This document shows, piece after piece, positions 2,698 through 47,939 of a stretch of 64,000 nucleotides of DNA. The position numbers and the translations under genes are program-made. Source of the DNA: Bacteroidota bacterium. GTDB lineage: Bacteria; Bacteroidota; Bacteroidia; Flavobacteriales_E; Vicingaceae. The DNA lies in contig JACPDX010000006.1 of assembly GCA_016183805.1 (NCBI GenBank), forward strand, positions 33,693 to 97,692, written 5' to 3'. The first letter of the stretch is position 1. Each line of letters opens with the position of its first letter. The notes under the pieces are model-generated. The model worked only from the letters and a program-made list of their open reading frames with translations, did no database searches and was not told the DNA's origin.

Positions 2698-2710
2698 GTT
2701 CATAGAAATT

Positions 2711-2842
2711 ATTAACGGTTTCGGGCTTTGCGTTGGTTGGCTTTTGAAACCGAAAACTGTCTGCCAGCACCAACGTTTATTAATTGCTCAAATTTTTTTA
2801 TTCGCACTGTCCGCCCACTAACGCAAAACCCGTGTTAGTGGC
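2711..2842 (-). repeat. attC-like recombination site (site 0) behind the GrpB gene
   Basis: Read on the minus strand this about 132-bp imperfect palindrome begins with GCCACTAAC, then AC, the arm GGGTTTTGCGTTAGTGGGC, a central part, the partner arm GCCAACCAACGCAAAGCCC, the spacer GAAACC and GTTAAT. The arms pair over 19 positions with a few mismatches, and the spacers are unequal (2 versus 6 nt), as in integron attC sites. It is closely similar along its whole length to the site at 45389-45520. The TAA stop of the GrpB gene lies inside the CACTAAC end, as is common in gene cassettes. It is called attC-like because no covariance-model score is available. Confidence 0.7.
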
Positions 2843-3462
2843 TGTTGTTTTTACAGGATTGTTTATGAAACCAAGTTAAAGCAAGTTTTTCGGTCTCTTT
2901 TATAAAGCTATCCTTTGCAGCAGAATATTCAAATTGGTGTTTGAATTCCTGTTCTGATAAGTTCTTTTTTAATTTGTAATATTTGTCTTTAATTTCAGGA
3001 TATGTATTTAAAAAGTCACGAAATGCTATATGTCTGGTCCAATCATATGTGTCTTTAACTATAATATGGATGTTTGCTAATGATTTAAAATCTTTCCCAC
3101 CAATATATTCCTCTCCAATACCAATTATTTTAGGTGGGACTAAGTTCTTTAATGGTGTTAATTTTACGAAAAGTCGTCTGGACGGCCAAGACGGTTCATA
3201 AAGTTTAAAATATGTGTAGCCACAATTTATCATTGGGTTTATAACTTCGTCTAAATGGCTTTTATCTTTCAGTCCAACAAGAATGTCAATTGTAGGTTTT
3301 GCACCAAGCCCCACAACTGACGTGCTTCCAATATGTTCAATTGTTGGGGAAAAATTAAGAAGTGCATTATTAATTGCCAGTTGTTCTTCGGAAAATTTAT
3401 TGGGCCAATCATTATTATATTCTTCAACTGTGATTTTCATGGGTTCTTACAATTGCCACTAA
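2717..3462 (-). mobile_element. Putative integron-type gene cassette carrying a GrpB-family gene
   Basis: On the minus strand the unit runs from a GTTAGTGGC at 3463-3455, 15-23 bp before the ATG, to the attC-like site at 2842-2711. The first bases of the unit (GTTAGTGGC) are exactly complementary to the first bases of the site (GCCACTAAC), as expected when a circular cassette opens within one attC. The unit holds a single gene in the orientation usual for cassettes. It lies just beyond the terminator of the lptD-like gene. No integrase gene is in the window, so mobility today cannot be judged. Confidence 0.6.
2835..3440 (-). CDS. GrpB family protein (nucleotidyltransferase-like fold)
   Basis: A 201-residue protein of the GrpB/UPF0157 family, recognised by IEHIGSTSVVGLGAKPTIDI followed by a hydrophobic strand (LVGLK), and by HIIVKDTYDW and RDFLNTYPEIKDKYYKLKK. 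The family adopts a nucleotidyltransferase-like fold (the GSTSV...PTIDI block is its GS...D signature), and members occur alone or fused to dephospho-CoA kinase; the substrate of the stand-alone form is not established. The gene fills most of a putative gene cassette: its stop lies inside the attC-like palindrome, and 15 bp upstream of its ATG is the cassette boundary. GrpB-like genes are common cargo of mobile cassettes. No promoter of its own is evident. Confidence 0.82.
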   Translation of the reverse strand: MKITVEEYNNDWPNKFSEEQLAINNALLNFSPTIEHIGSTSVVGLGAKPTIDILVGLKDKSHLDEVINPMINCGYTYFKLYEPSWPSRRLFVKLTPLKNLVPPKIIGIGEEYIGGKDFKSLANIHIIVKDTYDWTRHIAFRDFLNTYPEIKDKYYKLKKNLSEQEFKHQFEYSAAKDSFIKETEKLALTWFHKQSCKNNSH

Positions 3463-3487
3463 CTTGTTTATACCCTCAACTAAAGTA

Positions 3488-3532
3488 CAAAAAAAATGAG
3501 TATATCTATATCAATTTGGGTAGATATACTCA
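3488..3532 (-). terminator. Terminator of the lptD-like gene
   Basis: A perfect 12-bp inverted repeat (TGAGTATATCTA at 3497-3508 and TAGATATACTCA at 3521-3532) is followed on the minus strand by eight T residues. It lies 43 bp past the stop at 3575. The same GTATATCTACCC motif inside a hairpin occurs at the equivalent place before the second cassette (see 44790-44838). Confidence 0.75.
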
Positions 3533-3574
3533 GCTTGAATTGAGGTTTATTCATTTTCAAATGTAACTAATTTT

Positions 3575-6146: not shown

Positions 6147-7367
6147 ATGTTTAAAACCAATAGCAATAATAATAACAAGTCTGCCATAAAACGCACGATT
6201 GGCTTGTTTCTTGTTTTCTCCGCCTCATTTTTTTTTAAGGGATATGCCAATGGCTCAAAAGATTTTTTTGGTATAAAAACGGTAGTTATTGATGCCGGGC
6301 ATGGTGGAAAAGATGGTGGTTGTGTGGGCTCTATTGCCAATGAAAAAAATATTGCTCTTTCCATTTCTTTAAAATTAGGAAAGTACATCGAAGAGAACTT
6401 TAAAGATGTTAAAGTTGTTTACACCAGAAGTACAGATGTTTTTATAGAATTGGCAGAACGGGCTAGAATTGCAAACAAGGCGAATGCCGATTTATTTATT
6501 TGTATTCATGTAAATTCAGGAACAGTAACAAATGCAATTGGAACTGAAACTTATGTAATGGGTTTGCATAAAACAGAATCAAACCTTAAAGTAGCACAAC
6601 GTGAAAATGCTTCCATTTTATATGAAGATGATTATAAATCGAAATACGAAAATTTTGACCCAAATTCTCCTGAATCATACATCGTATTAACATTAACTCA
6701 AAGTGCACATTTAGAGCAAAGTTTAATTTTTGCCGCCAAAGTTCAAAAAGAATTTACTGAAAAAGTTGGACGATACAATAGAGGAGTTAAACAGGCAGGG
6801 TTTTTAGTGTTACACCAAACTGCCATGCCAAGTGTTTTAATAGAAACAGGATTTATAACCAACAAAGAAGAAGAAAAATTTTTAGCTTCTGATATTGGGC
6901 AAGATTATATGGCTTCAGCTATTTTTAGAGCATTTAAAGAATATAAATACGAAATTGAAAGCAAAGGAATAAAAGAAGAACCCAAGAAGCTAGAAGCAGG
7001 AAGTCAGAAGACTGAAGTAGTTGAAGTGCCCAAAGTTGTTGACGATAAAAATAATAGAAAAGACAAAAAGAAGCTGGAAGACGGAAGTACGAAGTTAGAA
7101 GAAGGTGTCGTGTTTAAAATTCAAATTGCAACATCATCTGTAAAAACAGAATTGAAACCTGAAAATTTTAGTGGTTTAGAAGGTGTGGATTTATATGAAG
7201 CCGGAGGCTTATATCGATATACTTATGGCAAAGAAAAAAATATGGGCGATGCCAATAGCCTTCAATTGCAATTAAAAGACAAAGGGTTTAAAGATGCTTT
7301 TATTGTTGCATTTAAAGATGGAATTCGAATTCCAATCAGTGAAGCCATAAAACTTCAAGAAAAATAA
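6147..7367 (+). CDS. N-acetylmuramoyl-L-alanine amidase (Amidase_3) with C-terminal SPOR-like region
   Basis: Cuts the amide bond between MurNAc and the stem peptide of peptidoglycan. Residues about 35-255 form the zinc-dependent Amidase_3 domain: VVIDAGHGGKDGG (first zinc His), TRSTDVFIELAERARIANKA, FICIHVNSG (second His) and SVLIETGFITNKEEE (catalytic Glu). A linker of about 45 residues, rich in Lys and Glu, is encoded by degenerate repeats (6981-7104). The last about 80 residues (VVFKIQIATSS...DAFIVAFKDG) look like a SPOR peptidoglycan-binding domain. The ATG at 6147 (MFKTNSNNNN plus hydrophobic signal) is preferred to a TTG four codons upstream. About 407 residues is usual for the Bacteroidota form, which serves in cell separation. 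Confidence 0.88.
   Translation: MFKTNSNNNNKSAIKRTIGLFLVFSASFFFKGYANGSKDFFGIKTVVIDAGHGGKDGGCVGSIANEKNIALSISLKLGKYIEENFKDVKVVYTRSTDVFIELAERARIANKANADLFICIHVNSGTVTNAIGTETYVMGLHKTESNLKVAQRENASILYEDDYKSKYENFDPNSPESYIVLTLTQSAHLEQSLIFAAKVQKEFTEKVGRYNRGVKQAGFLVLHQTAMPSVLIETGFITNKEEEKFLASDIGQDYMASAIFRAFKEYKYEIESKGIKEEPKKLEAGSQKTEVVEVPKVVDDKNNRKDKKKLEDGSTKLEEGVVFKIQIATSSVKTELKPENFSGLEGVDLYEAGGLYRYTYGKEKNMGDANSLQLQLKDKGFKDAFIVAFKDGIRIPISEAIKLQEK
6981..7104 (+). repeat. Degenerate GAAG-type repeats inside the amidase linker
   Basis: Two clusters (about 6981-7016 and 7069-7104) of roughly 10-bp units of the form GAAGCTRGAAG, GGAAGT and MAGAAG encode the Lys/Glu-rich linker. Similar clusters occur at 21195-21244 in the helicase gene and at 22389-22426 between genes. 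Confidence 0.6.
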
Positions 7368-43469: not shown

Positions 43470-44717
43470 ATGTATTTAAAATTTATTCTTTCCTCCATCC
43501 TTGTCATCATTGTGTTAGATTGGTATTTTTTCCGTTCGTTCCGTTCGATTATCAAAAATTACAACAAAAAATTAAGGCTAACGATAACTATAAGTTATTG
43601 GGTGTTCACCTTATTTACAGTAGTTTTCATGTTTTTTGTCGCTTCTTATTTTGTCGATAAAACCGCTGCACCCAAAATATTCAGGGTTTATGTAATGGGG
43701 TTGATTTTTATGATTTTTATTTCAAAAATGATTGGTTCGCTGTTTATTTTTGCTCACGATATAAAATCGCTTGTACTTTTTGTTAAAAAGAAACTTTATC
43801 CGAAAGTAATTCCTATTCATCCCAATACCATTACCCGTAAAGATTTTTTGAAAAAAGCAGGAGTAGTTGCTGCTGCCATTCCTTTTGGCACATTATTTTT
43901 TGGCATGGTAAAAACAGCTTACGATTACACCATTAAACGTGAAAAACTAAGCATCAACAACCTACCCAATGCTTTTAAAGGGTTAAAAATTGTTCAAATT
44001 TCCGATTTACACGTAGGAAGTTTTTTAACCGACGAACCATTAAAAAAAGCCATCCAATTGATTGATGACCAAAAACCTGACATCATTTTTTTTACCGGCG
44101 ATTTGGTGAACGATATTACCGAAGAAGCCCTTCCGTTTATGGATACTTTAAAAAAATTATCTGCTCCAATGGGTGTTTATTCTATTTTGGGCAACCACGA
44201 TTATGGCGACTATTTTTATCAAAAGGACGACCACGAAGGCAAACAACACAATTATAATTTAATGAAAGAAGTACATCAAAAATTGGGTTGGAAACTGTTG
44301 TTAAATGAACATGTGGTGTTAGAAAAAGACAACGAACGTTTAGCTGTTTTGGGTGTGGAGAATTGGGGGGCCGGTGGGCGTTTTCCAAAATATGGCGATT
44401 TAGACCTAGCCAAAAACGGGCTACTTTCCACCGACATAAAATTGCTGTTGAGCCACGACCCATCGCATTGGGAAGCTAAAATATTGCCCGAACACAGCGA
44501 TATTGCTGCAACATTTTCGGGGCATACACACGGTATGCAGTTTGGTATAGAAATACCCAACTTTAAATGGAGCCCTTCGCAATACCTTTACAACCAATGG
44601 GCTGGGCTTTACACCACTAACCAACAACATTTGTACGTAAACCGAGGCTTGGGTTTTATTGGCTACCCTGGCAGAGTGGGCATTTTACCCGAAATTACCG
44701 TTTTTGAATTGGCGTAG
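43470..44717 (+). CDS. Membrane-anchored metallophosphoesterase (YkuE-like)
   Basis: A 415-residue protein with four N-terminal membrane helices (LKFILSSILVIIVLDWYFF to MGLIFMIFISKMIGSLFIF) and a short twin-helix region after KKLYPKVIPIHPNTITRKDF. The calcineurin-like domain starts at about 165: VQISDLHVGSF, FFTGDLVNDI, YSILGNHDYGDYFY, LLSHDPSHWE and ATFSGHTHGMQFG hold the metal-binding Asp, His and Asn residues in the usual order. Homologues are thought to hydrolyse lipid-linked phosphodiesters or pyrophosphates; the substrate is not proven. Own promoter; a short hairpin follows its stop, then the accessory region starts. Confidence 0.9.
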   Translation: MYLKFILSSILVIIVLDWYFFRSFRSIIKNYNKKLRLTITISYWVFTLFTVVFMFFVASYFVDKTAAPKIFRVYVMGLIFMIFISKMIGSLFIFAHDIKSLVLFVKKKLYPKVIPIHPNTITRKDFLKKAGVVAAAIPFGTLFFGMVKTAYDYTIKREKLSINNLPNAFKGLKIVQISDLHVGSFLTDEPLKKAIQLIDDQKPDIIFFTGDLVNDITEEALPFMDTLKKLSAPMGVYSILGNHDYGDYFYQKDDHEGKQHNYNLMKEVHQKLGWKLLLNEHVVLEKDNERLAVLGVENWGAGGRFPKYGDLDLAKNGLLSTDIKLLLSHDPSHWEAKILPEHSDIAATFSGHTHGMQFGIEIPNFKWSPSQYLYNQWAGLYTTNQQHLYVNRGLGFIGYPGRVGILPEITVFELA

Positions 44718-44747: not shown

Positions 44748-44838
44748 TATTACATTTGGTAGATATTATGTGACTAGAATTACGTATATCTACCCTATAT
44801 CAGGCAGATATATGTAGTTTTATCACACATATAAACAA
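44748..44838 (+). other. Left flank of the cassette array, shared with other loci
   Basis: Three parts are seen. TATTACATTTGGTAGATATT (from about 44748) recurs with two changes upstream of the cytochrome gene at about 48093-48118 and contains a TACATTTG -7-like box. An imperfect hairpin (ACGTATATCTACC ... GGCAGATATATGT, about 44792-44825) resembles the perfect hairpin at 3497-3532. ATAAACAA just before the GTTA boundary is identical at the GrpB cassette. The flank may be a docking site, a promoter for cassette genes, or both. Confidence 0.45.
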
Positions 44839-44839
44839 G

Positions 44840-45513
44840 TTATCGGAAATAATTTTATGTATTTGCATAACTATTAAATTTTTATATGTCCTACATTTTT
44901 ATACCTATGAATATTGATTGCTTAGAAATAATGGAAAAATGGAAATTCAATCAATATTTTCCAAAATTAGACATGTCAGCATATCGCAAATCATACGAAG
45001 ATGGTAATAGAATTCTATCTGGTCCTTCAGGTTGTGAAGGTTTTGCTGTGATGGATAGAGAGAGTTTAATAGGTCTCTTTGAATATTATCCTGATATTGA
45101 CGGGAAACCTGAGATTGGATTAGCATTAAGCCCGGATTTAATTTACCAAGGTTTAGGAAAAAAAGTTATGGATGCAGGCATTATACACCTTCTAAAGTAC
45201 AATCAGTATGATGAAAGCTATATATATCTTACCGTTTCTGCCGAAAATATTCCTGGAATAAAATTTTATATGAAATATGGTTTCTCTAAGTATAAAGAGG
45301 TTAAAAATGGAGAAGAAGAGATTACAGATTACAAAATGAAATACAAATTATGAATCGATAACAAAAGGAATATTCATAAAAATAACATCCGATAACACGG
45401 GTTTTGCGTTAGCGGGCGGACAGTGCGAGTATAAACATTTGAGCAATTAATAAACTTTAGTGCGAGCAGACAGTTTGGTGTTCCAAAAGCCCATTAACGC
45501 AAAGCCCGAAAAC
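44840..45513 (+). mobile_element. Putative integron-type gene cassette 1 (GNAT gene)
   Basis: The unit begins in GTTATCGG (44839-44846), 40 bp before the GNAT start, and ends in the attC-like site at 45389-45520. The site opens with CCGATAAC, the exact complement of the cassette start. One gene, same orientation as the site. It adjoins cassette 2 directly. Confidence 0.65.
44886..45353 (+). CDS. GNAT-family N-acetyltransferase (cassette gene)
   Basis: A 155-residue acyltransferase. It shows ALSPDLIYQGLGKKVMDAGI (acetyl-CoA loop QGLGKK), IYLTVSAENIPGIKFYMKYG and FSKYKEV, which are standard GNAT motifs A and B. GLFEYYPDIDGKPEIGLAL forms the central strands. The closest known activities are acetylation of amino groups on peptides or small molecules, and cassette-borne GNATs sometimes give drug resistance, but nothing here identifies a substrate. 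It fills putative cassette 1; the stop lies 35 bp before the attC-like site. Confidence 0.82.
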   Translation: MSYIFIPMNIDCLEIMEKWKFNQYFPKLDMSAYRKSYEDGNRILSGPSGCEGFAVMDRESLIGLFEYYPDIDGKPEIGLALSPDLIYQGLGKKVMDAGIIHLLKYNQYDESYIYLTVSAENIPGIKFYMKYGFSKYKEVKNGEEEITDYKMKYKL

Positions 45514-45520
45514 GTTAGCA
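45389..45520 (+). repeat. attC-like recombination site (site 1)
   Basis: Order on the plus strand: CCGATAAC, AC, arm GGGTTTTGCGTTAGCGGGC (45399-45417), centre, arm GCCCATTAACGCAAAGCCC (45489-45507), spacer GAAAAC, GTTAGCA (45514-45520). The 19-bp arms pair with three mismatches, all of the G-T/A-C kind. Spacers of 2 and 6 nt are unequal, which in attC sites decides the strand that is recombined. The whole is closely similar to the site at 2711-2842. Confidence 0.7.
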
Positions 45521-47716
45521 AACATAAAACAAGAATTATGAAGAAATTATTTTTGATAAGTTTATTAGTTAGCGGCTCTTTCAGCTATAGCTATTCACAG
45601 GACATGGTTTTTGACTGGGCGAAAATGTATGAAACTGTATCGGGGGAAAATGAAATTTACAACCAGTTTTTTCAGGCCGATAGCAATCATCTTTTTATAG
45701 CAGGAAAAGTATTCTCTGCTGTCAATGACTTCGACCCTGACACCGGCAGCTATATGCTACCTGCTCTATACAACGGAAATTATCACATTTCCATGTTTGA
45801 CCTTGATGGACACCATATTTGGTCGACTATACTGGGGAGTACGCTGGGACAATCAGGTTCTCTTAAAACTGAAATTCAGGACATGGCACTAAGCAATAAT
45901 GGGAGCTTATACGTAACAGGATCGTTTCTAGACACACTCTATTACGAAACGACCTCCGGTTTGCAATACATAACATCTAAGGGATATACGGATATCTTTT
46001 TTGGGAAAATGGATACACTGGGAAATTGGCTATGGATGAAATCGTATGGCGGAATTTATGATGATGCCGGAGGAGCCCTTTCAATAGCCGGCAATGACGA
46101 AATATATTTAAGTGGATCTTATTCTGATTCCGTAAGATTTATCCCTGGCAATACACCAAACTATGCACCCGTATATGCATTATTTACCTTAAAGTTTAAT
46201 TCACAGGAACAAGAGCAATGGGTTTATTCGACTGATAATCCTGTTACCTTCCCCGTTTTTGAGGTAAATTCCATGTGTATCGACAACGATAACGGAATAT
46301 ATATCGGAGGTAATTATTTCGACTTTTCTGGTGATTCAGTTAATTTCCAATCAGCAGGAAATTCCTCGTTGGTAGCAAATAATAACGATTACGATGGATT
46401 TTTATTAAAGCTGGACACTGCCGGAACTTTTGAGTGGGTAAAATCATATTCCTCAAGTGGGACAGACTATGTTGACAAGATTACATTTAATGCTGCCAAT
46501 AACAGTGTCATTGTATCCGGCCGGGCGGGTAATAGCAACCTGGATTTTGATCCGGGTACTGTGGCTGATAGTTTAAATTTTTCATCCGGCGTGTTTGGCA
46601 ATTACCTCTTATGCCTTACGCCAACCGGACAATTCAGCTGGTTAAAACAACTTTTTGCAGATAATGTACCCGGCACCGATTTAGTAATGCATATAGTAAC
46701 TGACCGAAAAGGCAATATTCATGGACTAAGCACATTTAATAATCCTTTAGATGCCGACCCGGGTTCCGGTGTGGTGAGTTATTCCATAAATCCAGGCGGT
46801 GCAAGTTTCAATACATATAGCCTAAAGTTAGATAGTTTGGGGAATTACCTTTGGAGCTATCACTACACAACAGCATTCAATGGAGATATTGCTTATGGAA
46901 TCGGAAAGGATGCTTTTGACAATATTTATGTTGGCCTGTTCGATGGTGTTGGGCCTGATCCGGACACGCTTACTCTTGGTAACATAAATTTGGTACATTC
47001 AAATAATGCAAGGCATTTTGCTAAGCTAAGAGAATGTAGTGTTCCTGTCTCTTCTGTAAGTCAAATCAATGACAGTACGCTGACCGCAACATTTTTCTAT
47101 CAAAACATCAATTATCAATGGGTCAATTGTGATAGTGGGTATGTGGTTGTTTCAGGAGCAACACAACAAGAGTTCATTCCGCCCGTCTCAGGAAACTATG
47201 CACTTATATCAACTTCATACGCTTGTTCGGCAGATACATCAGTTTGCTTTCTCTTGAATTTAGGTGGATTAACCGGAATTACGAATAATGAATTAAACAG
47301 TTTTATTTCAATATTTCCAAATCCTACTCCAGACAACGTTAGCGTTAAATTATCAGAAATAAATCAAACCATTGAATACACCATCTTCAATATCATGGGG
47401 CAAACTGTTTATAAGAAGTACTTTAAAAATAGTTCACAATTTCAAATTGAACTTCCAGATAGAAAAGGAATATATTTTATCAAAATAAAACTGGATAATA
47501 ATCGGGAAGCCATAAAAAAGATAATAAAGGAATGACGTTTATCACGTTTCTAAAAGTCATTAAAGAATAACATTTACTAACACTTTGTATAAGTAATGGC
47601 AGTCAATTAAGTAATGGCAGTCAATGTGGTAAGTTTAAGGATTTTTAGTCTGCTCAAACTACATGCGGTTTGACAGGAAAACACCACGCAATCTGCCACT
47701 ACTCATACAATTTATC
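45515..47716 (+). mobile_element. Putative integron-type gene cassette 2 (T9SS protein gene)
   Basis: Starts at GTTAGCAAA (45514-45522), the end of site 1, and ends in the palindrome at 47573-47724, whose first bases TTTACTAAC are complementary to the start at 8 of 9 positions (the mismatch is a G-T type). At about 2.2 kb it is long for a cassette. It holds one gene, starting 24 bp after the boundary. Confidence 0.55.
45538..47535 (+). CDS. Secreted T9SS cargo protein (cassette gene)
   Basis: A 665-residue surface or secreted protein. The signal peptide MKKLFLISLLVSGSFSYSYS starts at ATG 45538; in-frame codons upstream are only translation of the attC-like palindrome. Repeats of about 55-70 residues (WSTILGSTLGQSGS, LYVTGSFLDTLYYE, GNWLWMKSYGGIYDD, IYLSGSYSDSVRF) suggest a beta-propeller of the SBBP type. 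The tail is a T9SS sorting domain (FISIFPNPTPDNVSVKLSE, FNIMGQTVYKKYF, KGIYFIKIKLDNNREAIKK). By eye the gene is richer in G and C than its neighbours, in line with transfer. Cargo of this kind in a putative cassette is unusual. Confidence 0.85.
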   Translation: MKKLFLISLLVSGSFSYSYSQDMVFDWAKMYETVSGENEIYNQFFQADSNHLFIAGKVFSAVNDFDPDTGSYMLPALYNGNYHISMFDLDGHHIWSTILGSTLGQSGSLKTEIQDMALSNNGSLYVTGSFLDTLYYETTSGLQYITSKGYTDIFFGKMDTLGNWLWMKSYGGIYDDAGGALSIAGNDEIYLSGSYSDSVRFIPGNTPNYAPVYALFTLKFNSQEQEQWVYSTDNPVTFPVFEVNSMCIDNDNGIYIGGNYFDFSGDSVNFQSAGNSSLVANNNDYDGFLLKLDTAGTFEWVKSYSSSGTDYVDKITFNAANNSVIVSGRAGNSNLDFDPGTVADSLNFSSGVFGNYLLCLTPTGQFSWLKQLFADNVPGTDLVMHIVTDRKGNIHGLSTFNNPLDADPGSGVVSYSINPGGASFNTYSLKLDSLGNYLWSYHYTTAFNGDIAYGIGKDAFDNIYVGLFDGVGPDPDTLTLGNINLVHSNNARHFAKLRECSVPVSSVSQINDSTLTATFFYQNINYQWVNCDSGYVVVSGATQQEFIPPVSGNYALISTSYACSADTSVCFLLNLGGLTGITNNELNSFISIFPNPTPDNVSVKLSEINQTIEYTIFNIMGQTVYKKYFKNSSQFQIELPDRKGIYFIKIKLDNNREAIKKIIKE

Positions 47717-47724
47717 GTTAGCGG
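47573..47724 (+). repeat. attC-like recombination site (site 2)
   Basis: TTTACTAAC (47573-47581), then AC, arm TTGTATAAGTAATGGCAG (47585-47602), a centre that contains a tandem copy of the AAGTAATGGCAGTCAAT unit (47591-47608, 47609-47626), arm CTGCCACTACTCATACAA (47693-47710), a 6-nt spacer TTTATC, and GTTAGCGG (47717-47724). The arms pair at 16 of 18 positions. The arm sequence is unlike sites 0 and 1, but order and spacing are the same. Confidence 0.62.
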
Positions 47725-47811
47725 TAAGTTTATGCCGACACAACGGGGAAGCAGAAAACCGATTAGAGTAAGCATAAATTACAACAAAAAACAAATGAAA
47801 CATCTGACAAC

Positions 47812-47939
47812 CTCCGCACCTTGCCAAATGCCAACTAAGGACTAAAAAGCAGCTTGTCATTTTAGATTTTTTCCGCAAAAATGCGGAATTAAAATCTTAA
47901 TCGCACAGCCTTATAGAAAAAGGATTTAGTAAATTTATC
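47812..47939 (+). repeat. Dispersed 130-bp repeat, copy A, with variable hairpin
   Basis: Starts CTCCGCACC and ends TTTAGTAAATTTATC. The copy at 49112-49241 is about 85-90 percent identical outside the centre. The centre holds TTTTAGATTTT ... TTAAAATCTTAA arms enclosing TTCCGCA-AAAA-TGCGGAA; in the other copy the inner arms have another sequence but still pair. Its left end interrupts a short reading frame that starts at ATG 47794 (MKHLT), probably the gene of a third cassette after GTTAGCGG. The rest of the gap 47725-48169 holds no other gene; a TTCGTAG...CTACGAA hairpin lies near 47950-48005. Confidence 0.7.

Follow-up and report, generated by a model that had tools for sequence, protein, structure and literature searches.

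In the window, by which we mean the whole 64,000-nt stretch of DNA analysed, there are very probably two genuine arrays of gene cassettes, with an attI-promoter module ahead of each, and we are similarly confident that these arrays are orphan sites of an integron-like platform of the Bacteroidia. Both genes flagged by the initial annotation, which encode a GNAT acetyltransferase and a T9SS-sorted beta-propeller protein, are true mobile gene cassettes, and they lie at a chromosomal integron site without its integrase. The system to which they belong is integron-like and widespread in Bacteroidia, with a different recombinase, and is apparently undescribed: a literature search, mostly without subscription journals and preprints, found no description of it.

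Cassette arrays in the window and its genome

The features on which the analysis rests are as follows (positions are those of the window):

43470-44717, plus strand: metallophosphoesterase gene, the syntenic anchor; the integrase is directly next to it in the congener G001
44751-44838, plus strand: attI-like module; putative promoter core TACATTTG at 44751-44758, imperfect hairpin with ATCTACCC, terminating in TATAAACAA followed by GTT
44839-45513, plus strand: cassette 1, GNAT acetyltransferase (ORF 44886-45353; Pfam Acetyltransf_1, 2e-7); head GTTATCGGA, R'' TCCGATAAC at 45388-45396, 9/9 complementary
45388-45522, plus strand: attC1; R'' at 45388-45396, R' from 45514
45514-47716, plus strand: cassette 2, T9SS-sorted beta-propeller protein (ORF 45538-47535; Por_Secre_tail, 4e-11); head GTTAGCAAA, R'' TTTACTAAC at 47573-47581, 8/9 complementary
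47573-47725, plus strand: attC2; tandem 18-nt duplication in the 5' arm, 47590-47625
47717-47840, plus strand: probable head of a truncated third cassette, GTTAGCGGTAAG..., an uncertain assignment; 47704-47803 has a match in G001
2708-2842, minus strand: attC of the GrpB cassette, 87% identical to attC1
2717-3463, minus strand: cassette for a GrpB family protein (ORF 3440-2835; Pfam GrpB, 2e-39); head GTTAGTGGC, R'' GCCACTAAC, 9/9 complementary
3464-3565, minus strand: second attI-like module, TACATTTG ... TATAAACAA, preceding the GrpB cassette; junction TATAAACAA/GTTA

The plus-strand array has the anatomy first ascribed to it: two adjoining cassettes, each of which starts at GTT and ends in a palindrome whose R'' box is complementary to the head of the same unit, with the R' GTT that closes attC1 also forming the first bases of cassette 2. 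The complementarity between cassette start and palindrome, claimed from the outset, now stands at 9/9 for cassette 1 and 8/9 for cassette 2. The initial inventory was sound for these two cassettes, but it had missed the attI/promoter module at 44751-44838 and the third cassette, on the minus strand. Within attC1, 45398-45417 pairs with 45489-45508 (20 nt, 85% complementary). Before both arrays the module has the same plan, i.e., a putative promoter TAnnTTTG, a hairpin and then TATAAACAA/GTT (a slash marks the junction here and below), and the same module was found 3' of intact integrases in other genomes. An Rfam scan of the window gave no match. Downstream of attC2, window positions 47704-47803 gave a 74% match to C10:59700-59806 of G001, within the integron contig of that species; no R'' was located for the putative truncated cassette starting at 47717.

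The remark that no integrase lies nearby is correct for the window, and a sister species has one at the same site. In the congener G001 the order is KMO, metallophosphoesterase, a 378-aa integrase, attI and cassettes, and the metallophosphoesterase protein is 84% identical between the window and G001. Because the G001 integrase occupies the same site, the window array represents a chromosomal integron site that is missing its integrase. In five other genomes (G002, G003, G015, G019 and G006) unrelated genes follow the metallophosphoesterase. Among the congeners compared, no clean empty site for the window locus could be demonstrated, because the neighbouring genes of the integron-free congeners differ and the downstream genes of G001 lie on other contigs.

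When the genome of the window (G000) was searched with attC1 for more copies, as had been suggested, BLAST returned the 87% copy on the minus strand of the same window, which closes the GrpB cassette, and a third attC homologue was found on contig C15, closing a cassette for arr (rifampin ADP-ribosyltransferase). Just upstream of the arr cassette, the same attI recurs together with a tyrosine-recombinase fragment of 136 aa, so that a truncated integrase, attI and the cassette together span C15:162167-163274 (6168-7275 of locus L030). The attC of this cassette ends in GTC rather than GTT, and its Arr protein shares 47% identity with the Arr-2 of class 1 integrons. In all, G000 contains about nine attI modules and about a dozen attC sites. 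The modules (two on C5, and others at C7:10537, C15:89885, C15:162622, C15:214718, C29:23631, C60:57084 and C93:34412, with a further BLAST match at C33:41886) are scattered and of several sequence types, and none is accompanied by an intact integrase. A search of G000 for IntI yielded Xer-like matches only, all below the cut-off.

The evidence is evenly balanced on whether the G000 arrays are dead remnants of a once-working platform, with nothing moving now. No intact integrase was found in this assembly at 96% completeness, the one copy present is truncated, the C15 attC ends in GTC and an arm of attC2 is duplicated, all of which favor decay. On the other hand, the assembly consists of 109 contigs, one of them broken inside an attC, and an integrase might act in trans from a plasmid or an unassembled contig, plasmids with intact integrases being known.

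The integrase family and its distribution

Using the 136-aa fragment as query, we obtained matches in 31/60 related genomes, mostly within integrases of ~345-416 aa. At 16 loci that were read past the integrase stop codon, we found a promoter core, a hairpin, TATAnACnA/GTT and a cassette, a few of the loci stopping at a contig edge. The same integrase-attI-cassette plan recurred at eighty named loci, nearly all in Bacteroidota (hosts include Flavobacterium limicola, F. denitrificans, F. psychrophilum, Algoriphagus, Polaribacter and Kaistella), and about 90 Bacteroidota loci show the order integrase, promoter, attI, cassettes. By automatic detection, TATAnACnA/GTTR was present ~100 bp past the integrase stop in 67 of 91 loci, with a mode of 101 bp; many of the remaining loci are cut by contig ends. 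The motif TAnnTTTG occurred within 60 nt of the integrase stop in 33/67 cases, compared with 41/1340 random stretches.

Many contigs of metagenome-assembled genomes (MAGs; e.g., L063, L068, L110 and L140) terminate at or barely within attI, which would be the expected outcome if members of the population differ in their first cassette. The first cassettes at L064, L069 and L075 have a common leader, GCCAACCGCACAAACAGCACATTTGGTTTTTGCC..., possibly with a promoter of its own. A plasmid of Chryseobacterium sp. SNU WT5 (L238) carries an intact integrase and about five attC sites, and is a mobile form of the system.

The catalytic residues are conserved in the Bacteroidia integrases. Five of them scored 220.0-231.4 bits against NF040815 (XerA; cut-off 220 bits), one being exactly at the cut-off, whereas matches to TIGR02249 (IntI) were split in two and fell under the 265-bit cut-off. 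The spacing from KGxKDR to LRH was 69-71 residues in 72 Bacteroidia integrases, compared with 111 in 18 IntI proteins, and the ~40-residue insertion specific to IntI was missing from all 72 that were measured. In a careful tree, which took in one bad outgroup row, IntI formed a clade with 100/100 support and the Bacteroidia integrases fell outside it. A sister grouping of Bacteroidia integrases and IntI, seen in a quick tree with a support of 94, was dropped; the careful tree does not resolve the deeper branching. By fold, the best match among solved structures was IntI4 (2a3v).

In a profile search with the N-domain, the top PDB match was the HARP domain of SMARCAL1 (E = 6e-4), and Pfam HARP matched the best member integrase at 7e-6; by fold, HARP ranked first at an E value of 0.26, which is not significant. 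The N-terminal ~70 residues are most like the SMARCAL1 HARP domain, a resemblance that is weak by fold. Judged by its sequence, the integrase is XerA-like with an N-terminal HARP-like domain, and lies outside IntI as that family is defined. The initial annotation had suggested a little-studied Bacteroidota integron lacking its integrase; in substance that suggestion is upheld by the complementarity of R'' and head, the attI, the arrays and the syntenic integrase of the congener, but an IntI-type family is not.

It is very unlikely that these are the cassettes of ordinary IntI integrons, or of a CALIN, with the XerA-like genes as mere bystanders. Class 1 integrons do carry blaVEB with a Bacteroidota-type attC, so that IntI1 evidently accepts such sites, and other classes of the phylum often have an IntI, which is present in 105/395 genomes of a whole-phylum sample, all but one of them outside Bacteroidia. 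However, within Bacteroidia a canonical IntI over the cut-off was found in 1/395 genomes and the N-domain in 173/395, the spacing between the XerA-like gene and the attI behind it is constant in most loci, and the first cassettes there follow the head/R'' rule. We consider it even less probable that the host XerC/XerD proteins move the cassettes while the adjacent integrase has another role: the host has ordinary Xer-like genes, and the adjacent integrase itself has a XerA-like catalytic core, but it is the integrase bearing the N-domain that is tightly linked to attI.

The attC sites and probable natural movement of cassettes

A scan of the window for a hairpin with an R''/head match (up to one mismatch) returned 15 matches, compared with 8.25 per dinucleotide shuffle, the shuffle counts pooling exact and one-mismatch matches; only two matches were exact, at 44839 on the plus strand and 3463 on the minus strand. 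Statistics from the window are only suggestive for the cassette pattern, and the decisive support comes from other genomes. There, an exact 9-nt R'' lay downstream in 33/49 first cassettes anchored on attI (mean 1.7 and maximum 6 in 200 shuffles), and was absent in 16/49. A strong hairpin came after 23/29 R'' sites located by the head match alone, compared with 21/870 controls. Compensatory changes occurred at 15/16 pairs of the attC stem, with a covariation of 0.58 compared with ≤0.07 for slid partners; the hairpin control is the cleaner of the two, because the covariation set was picked partly by complementarity score.

An attC covariance model was trained on 24 attCs with an R''/head match. 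It recovered attC1 (E = 2e-26) and the attC of the GrpB cassette (E = 4e-28), two of the sites used for training; attC2, a site outside that training set, matched a portion of the model at E = 3e-5. The arrays comprised 90 attCs from 37 loci and were contiguous and co-directional, with up to 7 cassettes of a median length of 797 bp. On predicted folding, the bottom strand was the more stable in 26/37 loci (p = 0.02), and in 30/37 when the arms alone were folded, which suggests a modest preference for that strand. BLAST of attC1 against plasmids gave no match, although the structural covariance model does find such sites there.

Natural sequences also indicate that the cassettes move, with exchange exactly at G/TT of attI or attC in natural junction swaps. 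Loci L069 and L070, which are from different genera, have the same 1500 bp leading up to attI but differ from GTT onwards. The constant start of blaVEB, GTTAGCGG, occurs at attI1 in a class 1 integron and at a Flavobacterium-type attI on an Aliarcobacter plasmid; on Klebsiella plasmids, blaVEB from GTTAGCGG lies behind an integrase remnant and attI, with its downstream end missing. The blaVEB junction is identical at attI1 and at two Bacteroidota attI sites, and the gene is closed by the same attC, with R'' 9/9, in the class 1 integron and on the Aliarcobacter and Wohlfahrtiimonas plasmids. The initial annotation had staked its case on the units moving as such, and these natural data, i.e., the L069/L070 swap and blaVEB at several attI sites, did not contradict it. 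The blaVEB cassette at L240, L241, L242 and L243 carries an attC of Bacteroidota type and stands behind different attI sites.

On a Sphingobacterium plasmid, tet(X2) has the head GTTATGTGC and the R'' GCACATAAC (9/9), and its flanking attCs matched the covariance model at E values of 3e-21 and 3e-17, neither having been used in building it. Here tet(X2) is a complete cassette between two attCs. In Acinetobacter, tet(X3) is preceded by an attI-like junction and the C-terminal portion of the integrase; its R'' is mismatched and the adjoining attC is truncated. Loci with tet(X) in or beside such cassettes are L237 (Acinetobacter p80-1-2-tetX3), L244 (Sphingobacterium pWB8) and L245 (a B. fragilis plasmid).

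The weakest reading, that the palindromes are passive repeats (REP-/MITE-like, or terminators) placed after genes rather than recombination sites, can draw on the frequency of gene-following palindromes in bacteria and on the indecisive window-only statistics, but it is scarcely credible given that the outer bases match the start of their own unit, with no fixed terminal repeat, and given the GTT-to-GTT chaining of arrays, the junction swaps and the excess of head/R'' matches.

Proposed mechanism and related systems

The integron-like platform of which we take the window arrays to be orphan sites comprises, when intact, an integrase gene, a promoter and attI ~100 bp past its stop, and a co-directional cassette array. 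The XerA-type integrase would recombine the hairpin-folded attC of a circular cassette, which we infer to be a single-stranded substrate and probably the bottom strand, with a double-stranded attI. Exchange at G/TT would put the newest cassette behind the promoter, whose activity is likewise deduced from its sequence, and reactions between two attCs would excise cassettes. The HARP-like N-domain probably recognises folded DNA, as the extra domain does in IntI. At the window site in G000 the integrase has been lost, so the cassettes would be fixed there unless an integrase acts in trans.

With integrons the Bacteroidia system shares a tyrosine recombinase beside attI, cassettes that start at GTT and form co-directional arrays, attCs with R''/R' boxes, an unpaired spacer and a covarying stem, and a promoter-like sequence before the first cassette. 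As in most attCs, there is a C before the R' GTT (a bottom-strand G after AAC; PMC2727003). It differs in that the integrase lacks the IntI insertion and has the HARP-like N-domain, and in that its gene is upstream of and co-directional with attI, with the promoter behind the stop codon, whereas intI1 is divergent in the class 1 integron compared here. Like a CALIN or In0, the window has a pair of attCs separated by 2.2 kb, both found in its plus-strand array by our own covariance model, and no integrase; unlike them, its sites retain attI and promoter, and a strict CALIN presupposes canonical IntI and attC models. Xer proteins act at dif to resolve chromosome dimers. The Bacteroidia integrase has a catalytic core that scores at or slightly over the XerA cut-off (NF040815; 220-231 bits), but the protein differs from XerA and XerC/D in its extra N-domain and its cassette platform.

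To judge from these comparisons, the Bacteroidia system works like an integron, but with an integrase that falls outside IntI. Integron recombination has been reported to require the extra domain of IntI (PMC9668308), and software recognises integrons by this domain (PMC9024848). We lean, with some reservation, towards the view that Bacteroidia own an integron lineage outside the IntI clade, XerA-type, in which a HARP-like domain replaces the IntI insertion and the cassettes are interchangeable with those of class 1. As part of that view, the lineage would either have arisen independently and converged on attC chemistry, or have kept a pre-IntI state. If it is true, counts of integrons in one of the largest groups of bacteria have been too low, with searches keyed to IntI finding almost none; there would be a second solution for recombining folded DNA; and clinical resistance genes (blaVEB and tet(X)) would have a source in the Bacteroidia lineage.

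In the literature on 'xerD-tet(X3)', that 'xerD' corresponds to the C-terminal part of the Bacteroidia integrase, and in the context of the 'Re element-blaVEB', attCs of the Bacteroidia system close the blaVEB and tet(X2) cassettes. The accessible parts of three reports (PMC8635130, PMC7473080 and PMC3668210) describe an unexplained neighbor gene or repeats and recognise no integron platform; in the last of these, blaVEB was reported with 135-bp flanking 'repeated elements'. Whether 'xerD' beside tet(X) mobilises tet(X), a question raised in PMC7473080, would thereby receive a testable answer. A possible origin of the blaVEB cassette of class 1 integrons is also suggested.
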